Shown in pieces: positions 2,455-29,267 of a DNA stretch of 29,267 nt (position 1 is its first letter; each line of letters begins with the position of its first letter). The notes beneath the pieces are model-generated. The model was not told the origin of the DNA and ran no database searches. It saw only the letters and a list, made by a program, of their open reading frames with translations. The DNA is from a virus. A program made the translations under genes and the position numbers. Location of the stretch: positions 1 through 29,267 of the IMG/VR virus record IMGVR_UViG_3300009181_000254. The stretch is one strand, 5' to 3'.

Positions 2455-3957
2455 ATGATGTGCAGAATATGCAATGCTGTTAGCCAGCACGATCTTTGCA
2501 ATGTATGTCGTCAGGATACTAACTACTTAGTAAAATACCCAGTATTAAAGAATATCCTTACAGATTCAGCCTTAGAGGTCTTGGATTTTAATCCCTCGCG
2601 CTCTGACTTTCAACGAGTAGACGTTATATGTGGTGAATGCAAGAGTACTAATAATATAGATTTAGTTAGCATCCTTAAATATATAAGACGTCATCTAAAA
2701 AAGAATCCCTATAACATATATAAGTGTCATTCATGTTCTAAAAGAGGGGAATCTCTCATTAGTCTCAAAGAGGTGATGCCGATCATAGATATGAAACTCA
2801 CACAGGAAAAACATGGTGGAATAGGTAAAAATGTAAAAAAGTCCCTTGTTGTGGTCAAATGCGAGGATTGTTATGAACTATCAGACATTAAGTTAAGTAG
2901 TTTACTGCATGGGGCTAGAAGGCATCAGAAGCTAGGTCGAAAGTGTATTTACAAGTGTTTTAAGTGTGGTGTTCTATTGCCGGATGCCATAAAGAAGTCC
3001 AATGATGCCAGAGCTAAGCAGTTAGCTGTAGGAGCCCGTTCTCATATCGAAGTCGCTTTAGCCAATAGATTAAAGGCTTTGAATATAGAATATGAGGAGT
3101 AGTTTCGTACCGATATGTATGTTTGGGACTTTTACCTCCCTAAGTATTTATTATTAATAGATGTAAATGGAGAATACTGGTATGGACTATCTCGGAATAA
3201 ATCAAAAGATAAGTCTAAACTGACTTATGTAGAAAATTATCTACCTGAATATAAAACCCTAATCATAGAGGAAAAGCGTTTTCTAAACCCCTTGATGGTA
3301 GATAAAATAATTAAGGACGCCATAGGAGAATCTAAGAAGATTACGGTAGAAGAGTTTAGCTTATTGGATGTGATCATTAATCAGTCCTCAAAGGTATCTA
3401 AGTCCAAAAGGTCTACGGAATCTGATTTTTTAAACTCTTATCATTACTCAGGATTTGGTCGGAACGGGAAATTAGTAATTACGGCACATCTTAATGAATC
3501 ATTGGTGGCACTTTGTAAATTTAGTGGTACGACTCGACAAGGCACTGCTAAGTCTTTGGGTTATAAATGTTATGAAGTCCTGGAACTTGACAGATTCTGC
3601 ATACATCCTTCTTATCATAAAAAGAACTTCGCTTCTTGGTTTTTGTCACGATGTATGAAATTAGTATTTGAATCGAATAAACTTATGCAATGTTTGGTAT
3701 CATTCGCAGATCCCACATATGGTCATACCGGCACTATTTATAAAGCCACAAATTGGGAAATGAAAGGCAAAACCAATCCAAGTTACCATTATATGGATCA
3801 CTTAGGGGTTCCAGTCAATAAGAAGAGGATTTATGACTTTGCACAAAAACTTCGGATGAAGGAAGCTGAATATGTTGAACTTCATGGACTACAGAAGTTC
3901 TCTGAATTACCCAAGATTAAATATGTTTACAAGCGTTTTTCATCCGGGTCTAGATAG
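2455..3957 (+). pseudogene. Homing endonuclease with C-terminal Mom-like domain, interrupted by in-frame TAG
   Basis: One reading frame of 501 codons is broken only by TAG at 3100-3102. The first part (215 residues) holds three pairs of CxxC zinc-binding motifs (CRIC/CNVC, CGEC/CHSC, CEDC/CFKC). The nuclease core spans the stop: ...IEYEE, TAG, FRTDMYVWDFYLP, then VNGEYWY. Against the intact relative at 14487 this aligns without a gap and the TAG falls on a Gln (CAG). The His of the GEYWH motif is Tyr here, so the nuclease site also looks degraded. The C-terminal part carries HYSGFGR, LELDRFCIHP, NFASWFLSR and SFADPTYGHTG, motifs of the Mom-like acyltransferase family. No ribosome binding site precedes the start. 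It is either a decaying element or two separate polypeptides (2455-3102 and 3115-3957). Confidence 0.8.
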
Positions 3958-4104
3958 TTCTGTTGGTATCATGTTCCAAATGGGTGATGGGGATCATTAC
4001 CTTTTCATTAGTATGAATTTACTGTGTTGATGTTCGTTCATATTTGTGCTTCGCTATTTATTAGAACATACTTATCCTTTAATTTTTTATGTCACACATA
4101 AAAT

Positions 4105-4605
4105 ATGAATCGTAGTGCTATTTCTCCTTCGCGAATCTCAACGTCTCTGCGTCGCATAGCTTCCGCTATCGAGAATTCGGAGAATCCCTCACGTGAGTTG
4201 GTAGCAAGGGAGTTACAACGTCTAGTAAGAAAAATAGCTGGTAACGAAGACGGAATTTCAGTACTTGGTCAAACGGTAAATGTTGAGGTTCCCGGTTTGG
4301 GTCTCGTACCTGTAATACTTACTAAAGTCGAATTCTTTGATGAGAAGAATACTCGAAATGTGGTAGGAACTATAAATGGTTTTATGGTCAAGACTAGTAC
4401 ATACAGTAGATCTTATAAGGTAGATCCTACTGATATCCTTCCTGTGGAGTTAAAGCAATATTTCGATCCTGAAGGATTCCGACCTGTCGACGCTTTTGCC
4501 ATCGCAATAGACAAAATTCTTAAGAATTATGGGATAGAGGACGAGTACCCAATTATAGAAAATGGTATATATTTTTCTAGTGAGCAGGATGACGACTCAA
4601 TATAA
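4105..4605 (+). CDS. Unknown phage protein with conserved N-terminal helical module
   Basis: A 166-residue protein. Residues 10-48 form a helical module containing LRRIASAIENSENPSRELVA, which recurs in the broken gene at 25285 and, more distantly, in the minus-strand gene at 25731-26369. The remainder is a mixed beta region with no recognised catalytic motif. No Shine-Dalgarno site is visible; an AT-rich leader runs straight into the ATG. It follows the broken homing endonuclease by 147 bases, as the paralogue at 25285 follows the third homing endonuclease. The function is unknown. The modular N terminus may be a targeting or interaction tag (inference). Confidence 0.75.
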   Translation: MNRSAISPSRISTSLRRIASAIENSENPSRELVARELQRLVRKIAGNEDGISVLGQTVNVEVPGLGLVPVILTKVEFFDEKNTRNVVGTINGFMVKTSTYSRSYKVDPTDILPVELKQYFDPEGFRPVDAFAIAIDKILKNYGIEDEYPIIENGIYFSSEQDDDSI

Positions 4606-4884
4606 CGATAAAGAATAGTAGACTACAGGATTCCTCATCGAAATCCTGTAGAGTGCTCTACACGCATTTAATTTATAAAATGTGTTAAGTATATAGGGAA
4701 ATAAAGTGGAGAAGTATTCATCCTCCCTGGGTCTAAAGTTAGTAAGTACATAACAATGTGATTAAAGAAACTCGGGATATTGAAGTTCAGTATAAACCCG
4801 GCCCACATGACGACGTTAGAACATGTGGTTCCTTTATATAATAAAAACCAGGAATAACTAATGATTTTTTTAGTATAGTATTCT
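4606..4884. other. Non-coding interval with two inverted repeats
   Basis: No convincing gene is seen in this 279-base AT-rich stretch. It contains a 10-bp perfect hairpin CTACAGGATT / AATCCTGTAG (about 4623-4651) just after the preceding gene, without a T run, and a second 7-bp inverted repeat CCACATG / CATGTGG around 4802-4829. Either could be a weak terminator or an RNA-stability element. A promoter for the following gene probably lies here, but none could be assigned. Confidence 0.4.
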
Positions 4885-5118
4885 GTGATACAGATAAAAT
4901 TTTCTAAATTTGATGGTGGTAACATAGTATCAGCTGGCGGAGATTTAGTAGAAGTCACTGATAAATATGTAATAGTTAAACATCAAGATGTCAGTTACTC
5001 CTTCCGAAGGACTCCCGGTTCTAAATCGGGATATGGTATTGGGGCGGCAAAAAATTGGAGGCTGGGGTTAGAAGAAAGAAACCAGCATGTTCACCCTGAA
5101 AATCTGAAGAAAAGATAA
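4885..5118 (+). CDS. Small hypothetical protein
   Basis: A 77-residue protein (IQIKFSKFDGGNIVSAGG...) ending in a basic tail. The frame's earliest start after a stop is GTG at 4885. An ATG at 4861 in the same frame, with a weak purine-rich site before it, is cut off from this gene by TAG at 4876. The beta-rich sequence with several Gly turns looks like a small SH3-like or similar barrel, but no family is recognised. Its stop codon lies inside the left arm of a strong terminator, so it is the last gene of its transcript. Confidence 0.6.
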   Translation: MIQIKFSKFDGGNIVSAGGDLVEVTDKYVIVKHQDVSYSFRRTPGSKSGYGIGAAKNWRLGLEERNQHVHPENLKKR

Positions 5119-14486: not shown

Positions 14487-15917
14487 ATGAATGGAGAAAA
14501 ACTAGCTAAATATTTAGCTACGTTAGAGCCTGGGTATACGAATAAATCCAGAATAACTTATACTTGTGAGATGTGTGGTATTCAAAATCACATTATTTTA
14601 AAATGCTTTAAAGAAAAAATATCTAAGGGCTCGTTATATTGTAAGAAGTGTTCACTGAAGCAGAAATGGCAAGATGAAGAATATCGATCTAAAATAAAGA
14701 AAAGTCAAGAAATAATATGGAATGAAACTGATACGAAAAATAAAATATCGGAAAAAAGCAAGAAATTGTGGCAAGATCCCGAATACAAATCTGCTCAGTT
14801 AAAAATTCACTCCGACCCCGAATATCTAAAATCAGCTAGAGAACATTCAATAGACAATTGGAAGAGTGTAGAATTCAGAGAAAACCAACTGAAAACTCGA
14901 AATACTCCTGATTTTAAAGCAAAACAGTCACAATCAATGCGTGATTTATGGAATTCTAACAAATATGTAGAAAAAACCCTTCTGTCCTTATCAAAAAAAT
15001 TCAGTAGTGACTTTAAATCATCGTTAGAGATCATAACATCTAATATTTTAACTGCTCTTAGTATTTCATATAAAGAGCAGTATGTAGTAGGACCCTATAT
15101 TTTTGATTTTTATCTTCCCGATTTTAAAGTATATATTGAATGTCAAGGAGAGTATTGGCATTCATTAGAATCTGCTGTTAAGCGTGATGCGAGTAAATCT
15201 ACTTATCTAAGGAAGGCTCATTCTGATAGTAAGTTTTTGTACTTAAATGAGGTAGATTTCTGCAATCCTACTTTAATCAAGCAAAAAATTATTAGTATTT
15301 GTGGTTCGACTGCCATAACACAGGTTAAGTCGTTCGAATTAAAAAGTGTAGATATTAAGTTAATTAAAAAGGATGATCGGGATTTTAATTTAGCACATAA
15401 CTTGTTAACTAGTTTTCATTATGCGGGTTTTGGTAGAGCTGCTAAGGTAATATTTGGAGCATATAAGGATAAGGAGCTCATAGCCGTATGTAAGTTTTCA
15501 CCGCCAATAAGACAGGAAGTGGCCACCTCTTTAGGCATTAGTCCTAAAAATATGCTTGAGCTTGATAGGTTCTGTATAAAACCAGATAGGCAAATAAAGA
15601 ATTTTGCTAGTTGGTTTTTATCGAGAGCAGCTAAACTCATTTTTAGTATAGATTCTTCAAAATCTCACTTGGTGTCTTTTGCTGATAGCACTTACAATCA
15701 CTTAGGAACTATTTATAAAGCAGCCAATTGGGCGTATGTTGGTGTTGTTTCCCCTGATTATTACTACGTTAATGGTCAGGGCTGGATATTACACAAAAAG
15801 ACATTATATAATCAAGCTGTAAGAAATAAAATGAGGGAGTCTGATTATGCTGAAAAGCATCATTATGTAAAAATATACGGAAAAGAAAAATATAAATTTA
15901 TTCTTGCTAAGTCTTGA
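14487..15917 (+). CDS. Homing endonuclease with C-terminal Mom-like acyltransferase domain (intact copy)
   Basis: A 476-residue multidomain protein. Residues 24-62 hold a zinc ribbon (CEMC...CKKC). Residues 65-170 carry repeated helical units with WxDPEYK/LW motifs, likely DNA-binding NUMOD-like repeats. Residues 172-270 are an EDxHD/Vsr-like nuclease core: SSLE, YIFDFYLPDFKVYIECQGEYWH and KRDASKS. The C-terminal half has SFHYAGFGRA, LIAVCKFSPPIRQ, LELDRFCIKP, NFASWFLSRA and LVSFADSTYNHLGTIYKAANW, matching the Mom-like GNAT family (phage Mu Mom modifies adenine in DNA). It should cut DNA at a target site and perhaps modify DNA. Inserted between two phage genes with no disruption; relatives are at 2455 (broken) and 23305. 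Confidence 0.8.
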   Translation: MNGEKLAKYLATLEPGYTNKSRITYTCEMCGIQNHIILKCFKEKISKGSLYCKKCSLKQKWQDEEYRSKIKKSQEIIWNETDTKNKISEKSKKLWQDPEYKSAQLKIHSDPEYLKSAREHSIDNWKSVEFRENQLKTRNTPDFKAKQSQSMRDLWNSNKYVEKTLLSLSKKFSSDFKSSLEIITSNILTALSISYKEQYVVGPYIFDFYLPDFKVYIECQGEYWHSLESAVKRDASKSTYLRKAHSDSKFLYLNEVDFCNPTLIKQKIISICGSTAITQVKSFELKSVDIKLIKKDDRDFNLAHNLLTSFHYAGFGRAAKVIFGAYKDKELIAVCKFSPPIRQEVATSLGISPKNMLELDRFCIKPDRQIKNFASWFLSRAAKLIFSIDSSKSHLVSFADSTYNHLGTIYKAANWAYVGVVSPDYYYVNGQGWILHKKTLYNQAVRNKMRESDYAEKHHYVKIYGKEKYKFILAKS

Positions 15918-23304: not shown

Positions 23305-25209
23305 ATGTATAATTGTGAGTATTGTGGGAAAGAATTTCCACGACCAGTCACATCTGGTCATAAGAGGAAGTGTCCGGAGTTCCTCGCAGCTAAGCCCTTA
23401 GATGAGAGAAAACCACCTGCATGTCTTTGTGGTCATCAAGAAAATTCCTTCACTAGTATGAAGAGACACAGAGGTATATGTGAATTATGGAAAAATAGAG
23501 ATAAAAAACAAGTAACTAATGAAAGAATAATAAATACTTTCGAAAAAAGGTATGGGTCAGGTGTAACTAATGCTATTCATATTCCAGATGCTAGGAGAAA
23601 AAAGGAAGAAACCAATCTAAAGAAGTACGGGGCTATAAATACCTTTTGTAAGGATTCTATATTATATGATCAAATTCAAAGTTATTGGAATGGAAAAGAT
23701 AGGTCAGCTCACTTAGATAAAAATAACTGGGCGCGACCTGAAGTTAAAGCCAAGATTAAAGAATCTAATTTAAGAAAATATGGTGTAACCAATCCGTCTT
23801 TACATCCAGAAATTCGTGCTAAACAGCTGGCCACTTCTAAGGAGCGTTATGGTGATGAACAGACTTTAAGAGTTCCTGAAATTAGAGCCAAGGGAATAAA
23901 TACTATGATTGAAAAATATGGAGTTCCCAATGCAATGAAACTTGAAGAAATCCAAAATAAAGTCAAGGGAACTAATTTAGAAAATTACGGTGTTGAATGG
24001 ACTACTCAAGATATGAATACACGTTTAAAACAATATGAAAGCCAGATTAATCATTACGGTAGTTATTACTTTCAGACTACTGAGGCTAAGAAAATTATAA
24101 AAGACAAATTTCCTGAATCATTAGACAAATTTCATGCTACCAACATAGAACGCTATGGGGTCCCCCATCCTATGCAGAACCCCGAGTATGCTAGAAATCA
24201 ATTACAACATTCTAGACGTTCAGGACCGAATAATCTAGAGAAAAAATTCCAGAGCATCTTCCCTCAATTTTTATTTACAGGAGATGGTTCATACTGGAGA
24301 TATTTACCAGCATTAAGTAAGAATAAAAACCCTGATTTTCTTCTGATAGGTCCCGAACCTGAAAATCCGTTCCATGGTGCAAACTCAATAGTAGAAATAT
24401 TTGGTGATTATTGGCATTCTGAACGTTTTACAGGATTAAATAATGAAGACCATGAATCTTTGACTATTGCAGCATGGAATGAAATAGGTATGAATTGTTT
24501 AGTTATCTGGGAAAATGAATTTAAGACAAATAATTGGAAATCTAAAGTAAAATATTATCTTAATAGGATCAAGATAAGCAATTCAGTACCTGTTGGTGTC
24601 AAGCGTAATCCGTCACTTATCAATCAGGATTTGGTAGATTTTTCCTTTTCAGATATTAAGATATCACGTCTATCTAGTTTCGATGACGCTAAAAAGTTTT
24701 TAGATGACTATCATTATTCTGGATATGGGCGTGCAGGATCTGTAAATTATGGAGTGTATTTAGGTACCGATTTGCTTGCAGTTGTTAAATTCGCCTCGCC
24801 TGTCCGTCAGGGCATCGCCGCCACTCTCAAAATAGAGTCAAAGCAGCTTTTGGAGTTAGACCGTTTTTGCATTCACCCGTCTCGTCACAAGAAAAACTTT
24901 GCCTCATTCATCATGGCTCGTGTAATTCGCCTTATTAAGCGGGACTTTCCTATCATTCGTAAGTTAGTTAGCTTTGCCGATCCTCGTGCTGGTCATACCG
25001 GTCATATCTACAAGGCATCTAACTGGACCGATTTAGGTAAAACTGCTCCCTCTTATTATTACCTCGATCCTAATGGAAATGAAGTTAACAAAAAGACTCT
25101 TTACCAGTCCGCCAAGCGTCAAGGCCTAATAGAGCGCGAATATTTTGAGTCTTTAGGTTATAAGAAAGTGCAGACACCCGCGAAATTTAAGTATTCCTAC
25201 ACTTTATGA
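23305..25209 (+). CDS. Large homing endonuclease with C-terminal Mom-like acyltransferase domain
   Basis: A 634-residue protein. Two zinc-finger motifs open it (CEYCGKEFPRPVTSGHKRKC and CLCG...HRGIC). Residues 70-310 hold at least five repeats of the form N-x-x-K/R-Y-G-V-x-N-P/A (for example NLRKYGVTNPSLHPEIRAKQ, EKYGVPNAMK, ERYGVPHPMQ), typical DNA-binding repeats of phage homing enzymes. The nuclease core has NNLEKKF, NPDFLL and IVEIFGDYWHSE...NEDHES, fitting an EDxHD-type site with the His intact. The C terminus has YHYSGYGRAG, ELDRFCIHPSRHKKNFASF, VSFADPRAGHTGHIYKASNW, Mom-like. From about 24780 onward codon use shifts to CGT for Arg and more GC, unlike the AGA-rich N terminus, suggesting a chimeric origin. 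Confidence 0.8.
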   Translation: MYNCEYCGKEFPRPVTSGHKRKCPEFLAAKPLDERKPPACLCGHQENSFTSMKRHRGICELWKNRDKKQVTNERIINTFEKRYGSGVTNAIHIPDARRKKEETNLKKYGAINTFCKDSILYDQIQSYWNGKDRSAHLDKNNWARPEVKAKIKESNLRKYGVTNPSLHPEIRAKQLATSKERYGDEQTLRVPEIRAKGINTMIEKYGVPNAMKLEEIQNKVKGTNLENYGVEWTTQDMNTRLKQYESQINHYGSYYFQTTEAKKIIKDKFPESLDKFHATNIERYGVPHPMQNPEYARNQLQHSRRSGPNNLEKKFQSIFPQFLFTGDGSYWRYLPALSKNKNPDFLLIGPEPENPFHGANSIVEIFGDYWHSERFTGLNNEDHESLTIAAWNEIGMNCLVIWENEFKTNNWKSKVKYYLNRIKISNSVPVGVKRNPSLINQDLVDFSFSDIKISRLSSFDDAKKFLDDYHYSGYGRAGSVNYGVYLGTDLLAVVKFASPVRQGIAATLKIESKQLLELDRFCIHPSRHKKNFASFIMARVIRLIKRDFPIIRKLVSFADPRAGHTGHIYKASNWTDLGKTAPSYYYLDPNGNEVNKKTLYQSAKRQGLIEREYFESLGYKKVQTPAKFKYSYTL

Positions 25210-26407: not shown

Positions 26408-26527
26408 TCATTCAGGTTCCATATCGGCTCCGGTGAAATTGGCTCCCTGAGTTTTTGCCCCGTCCAGTATTGCCCCGATCAATTTCGCCCCGGTCAGGTC
26501 CGCCCCGCGCAGGTGGCTTTGCAAAGA
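26408..26527 (-). pseudogene. 3' remnant of a pentapeptide-repeat gene
   Basis: On the minus strand 39 codons (ending HLRGADLTGAKLIGAILD, GAKTQGANFTGAD, MEPE, stop) have the A-(D/N)-L-x-x pentapeptide pattern but are cut by TAG at 26528 with no start codon. The last 24 codons are nearly identical in DNA to the 3' end of the gene at 29150-29267, so it is a partial duplicate. Confidence 0.75.
26411..26488. repeat. Direct repeat copy 1 (78 bp) with 29159-29236
   Basis: This 78-base segment matches 29159-29236 with only two differences, at a fixed offset of 2748 bases, in the same orientation. Both encode the C-terminal end of a pentapeptide-repeat protein on the minus strand. The repeats bracket the genes at 26682-29150. 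Confidence 0.9.
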
Positions 26528-26681: not shown

Positions 26682-27701
26682 ATGAGTATTGATAGGTATG
26701 ACTACAAATATTTCGCTCAGTCATTTCATAAGTGGAGGAAAGAAGTATCCCAGCACGATGGTAGTGGGATAGAACGTGAAAAGCTACAAGCTTTAGGAAC
26801 TGCCATATGGCCCCATAGTTACCAAAAATCAGATAATGATGAAGAAGCTATGGATCACCTGTCTGATTATGTGTATTCTAATCCTCAGTTTTCAGCATTT
26901 TTAATGATACCATCGGATCGCATCGCTTTTTTAGCTTCAGCGAGGTGGGCAGATCAGGGGTTTCCTTCTATTGTTATGGGACATAAGTACGCTGCAGCGC
27001 TTATGGCCACACATGTGCCTGCCGAGATTTCATCCATAACGCTTCCACCTTGGAAAGCTTTTTGTATCGAGATTCCGGACAATCTTTTATTTATACTAAA
27101 TTCTAAATCTGAGGAAATACCTATCAAAAGAGTGTTGGTTCAGTATATCGGGAACTTCCAAGATAAATCAGGCATCTGGCAATATGTGGCTTTTACTAAT
27201 ACTGATGTCACTATATGGAACCACGGTGTCAAATCGGTGCAGATGGCAGAAGGTCAATTTGAAAAGTATGAAGGGGTAGAAAATGAATGGGCGGATACGA
27301 TATTTAGTTTACCGCCTAATAGTATTGACGACGCTACTAATAAGCTAATAGGTAAGTTAATCATAAACGTCTGCTTGGCCATGTCTGATCCTGATAATGT
27401 AAAGACACGACCCGAGAATGGTTCAGTAGGTAGCATATCCTCTAACAGAGGAAATTTTAAAAATGTGAGAACCTACAAATTAGGGAAACCCATTTCTATA
27501 GACGTAAGACAAGCCATAAATGACTACATGCATGGGCGTAGTCGGTCTGGGGGAACCCCCTCAGTGCAAACGATCGTTCGTGGACATTGGAAACCCAAGT
27601 TGACTTCTAGGATCGGTCGTCCGGTTTGGATAGAACCCTACATTAGAGGCCCTGAAGACGCACCTGTTTTGATTAGGTCCGTCAGGTTAGGAAAGTCTTG
27701 A
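26682..27701 (+). CDS. AcrVA2-like protein (putative anti-CRISPR type V family)
   Basis: A 339-residue protein whose layout resembles AcrVA2 and its many phage relatives: a helical N-terminal part, a central LPPWKAFCIEIPDN strand region (AcrVA2 has a similar 'LPDWCVYVDI'), a helix KLIINVCLAMSDPDNVKTRP (compare 'LLWLCVAEPDI'), a polar linker, and a C-terminal VRGHWKPKLTSRIGRPVWIEPYIRG (compare 'RRGHWHGYW...WQPAVFVN'). In the characterised AcrVA2 the protein lowers Cas12a production by acting on its message during translation; distant relatives may have other targets. The start has a weak AAGG site. It is followed 39 bases later by an Acb1-like gene, supporting an anti-defence context. Assignment is by motif order, not search. 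Confidence 0.6.
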   Translation: MSIDRYDYKYFAQSFHKWRKEVSQHDGSGIEREKLQALGTAIWPHSYQKSDNDEEAMDHLSDYVYSNPQFSAFLMIPSDRIAFLASARWADQGFPSIVMGHKYAAALMATHVPAEISSITLPPWKAFCIEIPDNLLFILNSKSEEIPIKRVLVQYIGNFQDKSGIWQYVAFTNTDVTIWNHGVKSVQMAEGQFEKYEGVENEWADTIFSLPPNSIDDATNKLIGKLIINVCLAMSDPDNVKTRPENGSVGSISSNRGNFKNVRTYKLGKPISIDVRQAINDYMHGRSRSGGTPSVQTIVRGHWKPKLTSRIGRPVWIEPYIRGPEDAPVLIRSVRLGKS

Positions 27702-27740
27702 CTGTGGATTTTAATACCATTTTTATGTAATGTGTTAAGT

Positions 27741-28208
27741 ATGAGCGATGATAAGGTATACTACACTGGCGTTGTTTTAGACGATTTGGAAATCAAAAAC
27801 CTTCGTGATTCATTAGATGATGCTTTAGACTCATTTTACGAATCTATGGACACGGACGAATATGCCCAAGTAAAACAATGGGTACGTTCTAATATAAATC
27901 CTACCCACGGTCATGAACAGTTAAATCATCATATGACCATATATGCTAAACCAGCAGATGAAGAAGTTCGGGAAGATTTAGGAAAGGAGTTGAAACTGAC
28001 CATAGACGGATTCGGTATTGATCCGGAGCTAAAAGTAGCAGCGTGGCGTGTGAAATCACCCATTTCTGTAGAATCTGGGGTTCCACACATTACTGCTCTT
28101 TTAGGTCCAAGTGGGAAGGTATTTAATTCTAAGAATATAAAAGTATGGGTCGATTTAGTTCCATTTGATTTGGTGGGTAAATTACAAGAAGTCACTTCAA
28201 AGAAATGA
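27741..28208 (+). CDS. Acb1-like 2H phosphoesterase (putative anti-CBASS nuclease)
   Basis: A 155-residue protein (ATG 27741; a GTG three codons upstream is less likely). Two H-x-T motifs, His64-Met-Thr66 (LNHHMTIYAKP) and His116-Ile-Thr118 (GVPHITALLGPSGK), are the catalytic pair of 2H phosphoesterases. Length, the opening VYYTGVVLDD, the DLGKELKLTIDGFG strand and the PSGKVFNSKNIKVW end closely follow Acb1 (T4 gene 57B), which hydrolyses the cyclic nucleotide signals of bacterial CBASS defence. It should act in the cytosol on cyclic di- or trinucleotides. Other 2H enzymes act on RNA ends, so that alternative remains. It lies directly downstream of the AcrVA2-like gene. Confidence 0.75.
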   Translation: MSDDKVYYTGVVLDDLEIKNLRDSLDDALDSFYESMDTDEYAQVKQWVRSNINPTHGHEQLNHHMTIYAKPADEEVREDLGKELKLTIDGFGIDPELKVAAWRVKSPISVESGVPHITALLGPSGKVFNSKNIKVWVDLVPFDLVGKLQEVTSKK

Positions 28209-28243: not shown

Positions 28244-28726
28244 ATGAGTGAAAATTCTCCTGCTAACCATGATTTATGGGATAGGATTCAGAAGCTTACT
28301 CGCGGTGATGTTGCCTATATTATACATAATAAACGCCGTGTAGATGGACCGAACGGAGGTAAAGGGTTTAAGAAGCACCCATCTGCTTACTCTAACGGTT
28401 GGGCGGTGAAGTTATATAACGAATCTGGTGGGAAATGGGTCTCCTCTAAAAATGCTAGCATTGCGTTAAGAATAGCTAATCTTAGCGATTGGTTCAAAAA
28501 AGAAGATTGGGTAGCTATTGATACACATGGCAAGATAGTAGGACCATGTGGCCAATCAGAGAATAGACCCAAAGAGACTCACAAGGGTCAAGACCCTCTG
28601 AAATGTTTGCCTCGCTCTAAAGCTCACCAGATGACTAAAGCGGAAAGGGCTTCTGCTTCACGGCGCAAAAAGCGTTACGAAAAAGAAATTCCGGATTCAA
28701 AAAAACCAGTTCATAGTCCGACGTAA
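28244..28726 (+). CDS. Basic phage protein with C-terminal 'CLPRSKAHQMTKAERA' motif
   Basis: A 160-residue, Lys/Arg-rich protein. The middle has KKEDWVAIDTHGKIVGPCGQS and the C terminus KCLPRSKAHQMTKAERASAS followed by a basic tail. This W-V-x-I-D...G-P-C-G...C-x-P-x-x-K-A...T-K pattern recurs in many small phage and large-virus proteins of unknown role (some are grouped with DUF5872-like sequences). The Cys pairs suggest a small zinc site. High charge and presence beside the anti-defence genes allow a nucleic-acid-binding role, but this is not shown. Confidence 0.65.
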   Translation: MSENSPANHDLWDRIQKLTRGDVAYIIHNKRRVDGPNGGKGFKKHPSAYSNGWAVKLYNESGGKWVSSKNASIALRIANLSDWFKKEDWVAIDTHGKIVGPCGQSENRPKETHKGQDPLKCLPRSKAHQMTKAERASASRRKKRYEKEIPDSKKPVHSPT

Positions 28727-28754
28727 AAATAATTACTCCGGTGTATGTTGTTTG

Positions 28755-29030
28755 ATGGAAATCATCGGCATACTACTCGGTTTGATCGGTCCTGTTCTTC
28801 TCATTTTGGTGTTATCCGGAAGTCCTGTTAACGCCTGGATGAAAGGTCTTAAATATGTAAGTTTAGTGATTGGTCTTTTACAGTTATTTACTGCGTTGAT
28901 CATAGTAACTGCAACAAACCCTAAGTCGGTTGGTACAGATGATATTTGGATGCGTGTCATACTATTGATTATCTGGTCTATCTTAAATGTTTTGGCTTAC
29001 ATCAAGACCAGGAAATCAGAATACCAGTAG
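28755..29030 (+). CDS. Small membrane protein with three hydrophobic segments
   Basis: A 91-residue protein (ATG 28755) with probable membrane helices at about residues 3-21 (IIGILLGLIGPVLLILVLS), 32-52 (LKYVSLVIGLLQLFTALIIVT) and 67-84 (VILLIIWSILNVLAYI), and a short basic tail. No signal peptide is needed for such a layout. It lies in the anti-defence block, so a superinfection-blocking or membrane-sensing protein is possible; holin-like activity is another option. The 3' end overlaps the converging small gene by 15 bases. Confidence 0.65.
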   Translation: MEIIGILLGLIGPVLLILVLSGSPVNAWMKGLKYVSLVIGLLQLFTALIIVTATNPKSVGTDDIWMRVILLIIWSILNVLAYIKTRKSEYQ

Positions 29031-29150: not shown

Positions 29151-29267
29151 CATATAATTTCAGGATCCATATCGGCTCCGGTGAAATCGGCTCCCTGAGT
29201 TTTTGCCCCGTCCAGTATTGCCCCGATCAATTTCGCATTGGTCAAATTCGCATTGCTCAAATTCGCA
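29150..29267 (-). CDS. Pentapeptide-repeat protein (3' end only; continues beyond the window)
   Basis: The visible 38 codons read ANLSNANLTNAKLIGAILDG, AKTQGADFTGADMDPEII, stop: A-(N/D)-L-x-x repeats that form a right-handed quadrilateral beta helix. Some pentapeptide proteins mimic DNA and bind gyrase, but most have no known role; nothing here decides it. The start lies outside the window. The last 78 bases of the repeat region are duplicated at 26411-26488. Confidence 0.8.
   Translation of the reverse strand, partial: ANLSNANLTNAKLIGAILDGAKTQGADFTGADMDPEII
29159..29236. repeat. Direct repeat copy 2 (78 bp) with 26411-26488
   Basis: See the partner at 26411-26488: 78 bases with two differences. 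This copy is part of the apparently intact pentapeptide-repeat gene, while the other belongs to a remnant, so this copy is the likely donor. Confidence 0.9.

Follow-up and report, generated by a model that had tools for sequence, protein, structure and literature searches.

A probable remote homologue of AcrVA2 encoded beside a 2H phosphoesterase in a phage-G-like huge phage

A gene in a 29,267-base virus record (IMG/VR IMGVR_UViG_3300009181_000254; this whole stretch is called the window here) encodes a protein that is almost certainly a remote homologue of AcrVA2, and the family around this protein is the interesting part of the locus. The gene downstream encodes a 2H phosphoesterase which, among the 2H families, is closest to CNPase and PF08302, though it lies itself below the Pfam threshold. 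The features of the locus are as follows.

26682–27701, plus strand: protein of the AcrVA2 superfamily, 339 aa, ATG start, phrog_15934 branch (ORF, phrog_15934, Foldseek, hhalign)
26919–27698, plus strand: part collinear with AcrVA2, residues 80–339 (hhalign)
27576–27590, plus strand: VRGHW motif, residues 299–303, the most conserved module, equivalent to RRGHW of AcrVA2 (alignments)
27732–28208, plus strand: 2H phosphoesterase, CNPase/tRNA-ligase CPDase-like, 158 aa from a GTG or 155 aa from the ATG at 27741 (ORF, relatives, model, fold search)
27930–27938, plus strand: first H-x-T motif, H64-M-T66, numbered from ATG 27741 (H and T invariant in the alignment)
28086–28094, plus strand: second H-x-T motif, H116-I-T118, within PHIT...GK...S.NI..W (H and T invariant in the alignment)
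28244–28726, plus strand: neighbour, 160 aa, weakly DUF5872-like, phrog_23735 (3.6e-12), with a basic C-terminal tail (family searches)
28752–29030, plus strand: neighbour, 92 aa, hydrophobic in make-up, probably a membrane protein (ORF and family searches)

The original prediction, an anti-defence island made of an AcrVA2-like gene and an Acb1-like gene, had described a 339-residue frame followed 39 bases later by one of 155 residues; both are present, the ATG at 27741 lying exactly 39 bases after the stop of the first ORF. Because both ORFs have homologues (phmmer down to 4e-24 and 1e-12, respectively) and a 257,205-bp sister contig carries an identical copy of the whole two-gene stretch, the genes are not chance frames.

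Homology to AcrVA2 and the spread of the family

The 26682–27701 protein matches phrog_15934 (E=5.9e-10), whose function is unknown in PHROGs, and no Pfam or NCBIfam family. Searches of the PDB sequences with the protein and its profiles by phmmer and hmmsearch did not find AcrVA2, and the link therefore required profile–profile and fold comparison, both of which had been proposed as checks with the original prediction and both of which found the similarity. In hhalign, a profile of 14 relatives of the protein aligned with one of nine true AcrVA2 relatives, gathered without the VRGHW pattern, at 96.6% probability (E=4.9e-10) over 237 collinear columns, with an identity of about 9%. In this alignment LPPWKAFCIEIP faces LPEWCVYLDIA on the AcrVA2 side, LIINVCLAMSDPD faces LLPYLLWLCVAEPE, and VRGHW faces RRGHW, so that the three motifs first named for the protein indeed stand in the same order opposite their AcrVA2 counterparts. 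Reversed, column-shuffled and unrelated control profiles gave E values of 0.13–0.98. The homology does not hinge on the C-terminal motif, since the portion preceding RGHW still reached 90.5% and E=1.4e-6 by itself. Furthermore, two bridging sequences were found by HMMER, one matching the model of the window's branch (L145, 1.4e-10, positions 45–286) and the other the AcrVA2 model (L009, 2e-6, positions 60–318).

The AlphaFold2 model of the protein is of low confidence (pLDDT 58 overall, roughly 70–88 in the core). In a Foldseek search of all PDB chains, ranks 1–3 were nevertheless AcrVA2 chains (7ci2_A and 7ci1_A/B, E 2.6e-4 to 6e-3), the best being 7ci2_A with a probability of 1.00 and a TM score of 0.36 from a model that is poor outside its core. 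Beyond the AcrVA2 chains none fell below E=1.1, which makes AcrVA2 the only significant fold match. Two independent tests, showing profile homology over most of the length and the AcrVA2 fold, therefore support remote homology. The designation "AcrVA2-like" holds at this level and fails at that of phrog_6160, AcrVA2's own PHROG and the match of 7/7 true AcrVA2 relatives scanned; membership in it was rejected, since the protein matches phrog_15934 instead. While the Moraxella AcrVA2 (7CI1, 7CI2) shares the collinearity, the motif order and a C-terminal R-x-H-W module with the window's protein, its C-terminus reads RRGHWHGxWxG...W.P in place of VRGHW...WIEPY..GP.

A DNA pattern for VRGHW...W[IM] matched at least 120 stretches in viral contigs, from which at least 83 VRGHW-motif ORFs were read, three of which are copies of the window's own ORF; conservation of VRGHW among these loci is a product of the search pattern and was not counted as evidence. 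The closest among the matches listed (L070, L049, L099, L104 and L087; phmmer 4e-24 to 2e-16) are direct sequence relatives in an unnamed phrog_15934/VRGHW family, whose members vary greatly in length and in their N-terminal region. At least 80 viral contigs carry a member of this family, as do genomes of Actinomycetota, Myxococcota, Acidobacteriota and Proteobacteria, and weak matches lie on plasmids of Streptomyces, Rhodococcus and Gordonia. Judged from sequence, the window's AcrVA2 relative thus belongs to a large, mostly unnoticed phage family. In one viral contig (L095), two adjacent VRGHW-motif ORFs at 3546–4415 and 4409–4915 are apparently a tandem duplication.

Homologues of AcrVA2 had been listed in two phyla by a 2019 survey (PMC6739104). 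True AcrVA2 relatives occur in Moraxella, Leptospira and Pasteurella, in Lactobacillus delbrueckii phages and in Erwinia amylovora jumbo phages; the latter (Alexandravirus, about 262–267 kb; L140, L141 and L142) carry them without annotation. The AcrVA2 annotated in Shewanella phage Y11 matches PDB 7CI1/7CI2 at 1.5e-72. The last 36 residues stand out as the better conserved part of the protein in each branch (mean pairwise identity 48% and 45%), with the reservation that in the window's branch the motif had itself been used for the search. Cas12a was absent from 32/32 genomes carrying a member of the window's branch; this is weak, as Cas12a is rare anyway (1/369 Gammaproteobacteria), and therefore indicates only a lack of enrichment.

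The neighbouring 2H phosphoesterase and its distance from Acb1

Alone, the 27732–28208 protein is below the Pfam thresholds and matches no family, PF08302 included. A weak crAss-phage match in tblastn against phages led to the 2H family, and relatives were gathered via this match and a motif DNA pattern; a Lactococcus match (L125) was dropped because the matched protein is without H-x-T motifs. The predicted pair of H-x-T motifs is present as H-M-T and H-I-T. The H and T of each motif do not vary among the relatives found, all of which have the first and second H-x-T and K...S.NI..W. Some of these relatives, L128 (4.7e-6), L127 and L124, score above the Pfam cut-off for tRNA_lig_CPD, the fungal tRNA-ligase phosphodiesterase (PF08302). 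In another, L126, the 2H domain is fused behind HAD_SAK_1 (2.4e-41), a domain of Swiss-Army-Knife RNA repair proteins. This viral fusion, seen at 3067–4152 of L126 and at 2227–3312 of L129, joins a phosphatase domain of RNA repair to the same 2H domain, and its make-up suggests a compact enzyme of two domains that heals RNA ends.

The structure model of the window's protein is good (pLDDT 84.4). Among PDB structures it gave 28 matches at E<=0.001, all to CNPase (best 8e-5); entry 6u05, a fungal tRNA-ligase kinase, came 50th. Among viral structures, giant viruses lead, the top match being an RNA ligase of Marseillevirus LCMAC202, and Cafeteria roenbergensis virus also appears. Two H-x-T motifs in a 2H fold place the protein in the 2H superfamily. 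It shares this fold, both motifs and the best structural matches with CNPase, the fungal tRNA-ligase CPDase (PF08302) and the Swiss-Army-Knife proteins (PF10307 fusion), and unlike them it is stand-alone and shorter.

Acb1 itself, represented by T4 gp57B, is likewise a 2H protein of similar length with a pair of H-x-T motifs, and its catalytic tetrad HxT/HxT (PMC9117128) has its equivalent in the window's protein, yet both motifs are common to 2H families in general. The profile comparison with Acb1, suggested alongside that with AcrVA2, came out negative: the Acb1 Pfam model PF23474, which matches T4 Acb1 at 2.7e-60, found no match at E<=1, and the hhalign alignment to seven Acb1 sequences was confined to 19 columns at the second motif, with a probability of 10.8%. 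Acb1 was absent among the best 50 matches in the PDB fold search, and the search of viral structures placed it 13th (E=0.035). The first and the second histidine are 52 residues apart in the window's protein against 69 in Acb1; the Acb1 signature YSR / R..GA..D..Y.PHIT is missing, and GK...S.NI..W follows the second motif. The missed PF23474 model and the poor hhalign alignment therefore indicate a 2H enzyme other than Acb1. The identity with Acb1 was rejected on these grounds, on the motif spacing, and because CNPase, tRNA-ligase CPDase and giant-virus RNA-ligase domains are closer; "Acb1-like" stands for the superfamily, with its fold and motifs, and falls for Acb1 itself. This gene gives a caution that a pair of H-x-T motifs is insufficient to call Acb1.

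Genomic setting

At least the last 12,586 bases of the window are identical to the end of the sister contig, which is also from IMG/VR. The major head protein of the window has 77% identity to that of LR745208, an uncultured 485-kb phage, 45% to that of Tunturiibacter phage Tunturi_5 and 38% to that of Bacillus phage G, and the source is therefore a phage-G-like huge phage. In phage records, LR745208 included, tblastn gave no significant match to either of the two proteins, so both look accessory.

The two genes and their two downstream neighbours form a patch bracketed by a 93-base direct repeat (26411–26503 and 29159–29251, minus strand, 91% identical), which may mark a recent rearrangement. 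Its first copy encodes, on the minus strand, the C-terminal end (3′ gene end) of a pentapeptide-repeat protein, and nine matches to the repeat are found in the sister contig. The two records stop at nearly the same position (29267 in the window), within the pentapeptide-type repeat and probably because of it. Elsewhere in the window, three genes within 29 kb (3115–3957, 14487–15917 and 23305–25209) combine Mom-like domains with HNH/homing-endonuclease-like parts; phrog_1384 is found in all three, and the last has Mom PF25680 (1.4e-26) and DUF7487. From these domains they look like a repeated gene family of the homing-endonuclease type.

The proposed island fared poorly. A 2H gene was found in 0/7 records (31–192 kb) with an AcrVA2-branch relative, and an AcrVA2 relative in 0/6 records with a 2H gene, in both cases among records that may be fragments. 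The adjacent ORFs had been put forward as further counter-defence candidates; the flanking ORFs matched no PADLOC model, PADLOC holding defence rather than anti-defence models, and the 28752–29030 protein matched no family in family-model searches. With the pair together in no other record tested and the neighbours without a defence-library match, an anti-defence island is unsupported.

Possible roles of the two proteins

The reading preferred here, with a little more than even confidence, is that the accessory patch of this phage-G-like huge phage has two unrelated accessory genes, one for an AcrVA2-type silencer and one for a phosphodiesterase acting on RNA ends (or cyclic nucleotides). Homology, fold and the two catalytic motifs are observed, and target, mRNA decay and substrate are inferred from them. 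AcrVA2 is reported, in one recent study, to read the LSKT peptide at the nascent N-terminus of Cas12a and so to set off decay of the mRNA by machinery as yet unknown, and has been called the first defence-related factor of prokaryotes to degrade an mRNA via its nascent peptide (PMC13131331). The 26682–27701 protein would most likely act in the same AcrVA2-type manner, by translation-coupled silencing of a host gene through mRNA decay. Its variable body would pick the nascent chain of some host protein, probably one of defence, and the conserved C-terminal R-x-H-W module would perform the step common to the AcrVA2 branches. The target need not be Cas12a; anti-Cas12a activity is not implied for a protein from another branch of so wide a family, whose phage members probably silence other host genes.

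Alternatively, the protein keeps the AcrVA2 fold for a purpose unrelated to defence and serves to regulate some gene of the phage or the host in the normal course of infection, such as during host takeover. Such a regulator would fit the very broad distribution across phages, plasmids and genomes of actinobacteria, as well as the varied settings of AcrVA2 relatives, which in Lactobacillus phage JCL1032 sit between attP and the genes for lysis and in the Erwinia jumbo phages among unknown genes. Against it, the AcrVA2 of Shewanella phage Y11 is close to two genes annotated as antirestriction and AcrVA2 itself is an anti-CRISPR, and a role outside defence is considered unlikely.

Most likely, the 2H enzyme would hydrolyse 2′,3′-cyclic phosphates left on cleaved RNA, for example on tRNAs that defence nucleases of the host have cut; less probably, its substrate may be a cyclic nucleotide. 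Both RNA-healing and signal-removal roles have been assigned to 2H enzymes of jumbo and other phages (PMC7824862, PMC5512222). The sister contig has a single P-loop kinase domain, of the AAA_33 type that also includes T4 PNK. None of the Rnl1, Rnl2 and RtcB ligases was found in it (T4 served as positive control for Rnl1), so the RNA-repair pathway is incomplete in the sequenced part. This absence would suit an enzyme that degrades a defence signal (2′,3′-cyclic, 2′-5′ or cyclic oligonucleotide) instead of healing RNA and that is Acb1-like by convergence, and phage 2H domains that never occur linked to an RNA ligase have been suggested to act as RNases or to degrade signals (PMC5512222). Such a function seems rather improbable in that the nearest folds and relatives are phosphodiesterases of RNA ends or 2′,3′-cyclic nucleotides, one of them fused to an RNA-repair HAD domain. 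As for the joint counter-defence block first envisaged, with an anti-Cas12a AcrVA2 and an Acb1 removing CBASS cyclic nucleotides, the AcrVA2 homology, the 2H fold and motifs shared with Acb1, its appearance in the viral fold search and the action of poxvirus and phage 2H enzymes on cGAMP (PMC12064943) speak for it, but it is very improbable given the Acb1 comparisons above, a pairing seen nowhere else and a superfamily that extends far past Moraxella-type hosts, with the weak Cas12a count.

For the AcrVA2-type silencer, a broader proposal is possible if somewhat doubtful: AcrVA2 may be one specialised offshoot within a very large family of phages, plasmids and prophages, in which the C-terminal R-x-H-W module serves as a common effector of mRNA decay coupled to translation and the variable body differs in the nascent chain that it reads, in the case of the window's member that of a non-Cas12a protein. 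"AcrVA2-like" must accordingly not be equated with "anti-Cas12a". The large family with its separately conserved C-terminal module offers many natural variants to compare and residues to mutate, and, if the proposal is true, the AcrVA2 family would represent a general, retargetable means of co-translational silencing of host genes by mobile elements.
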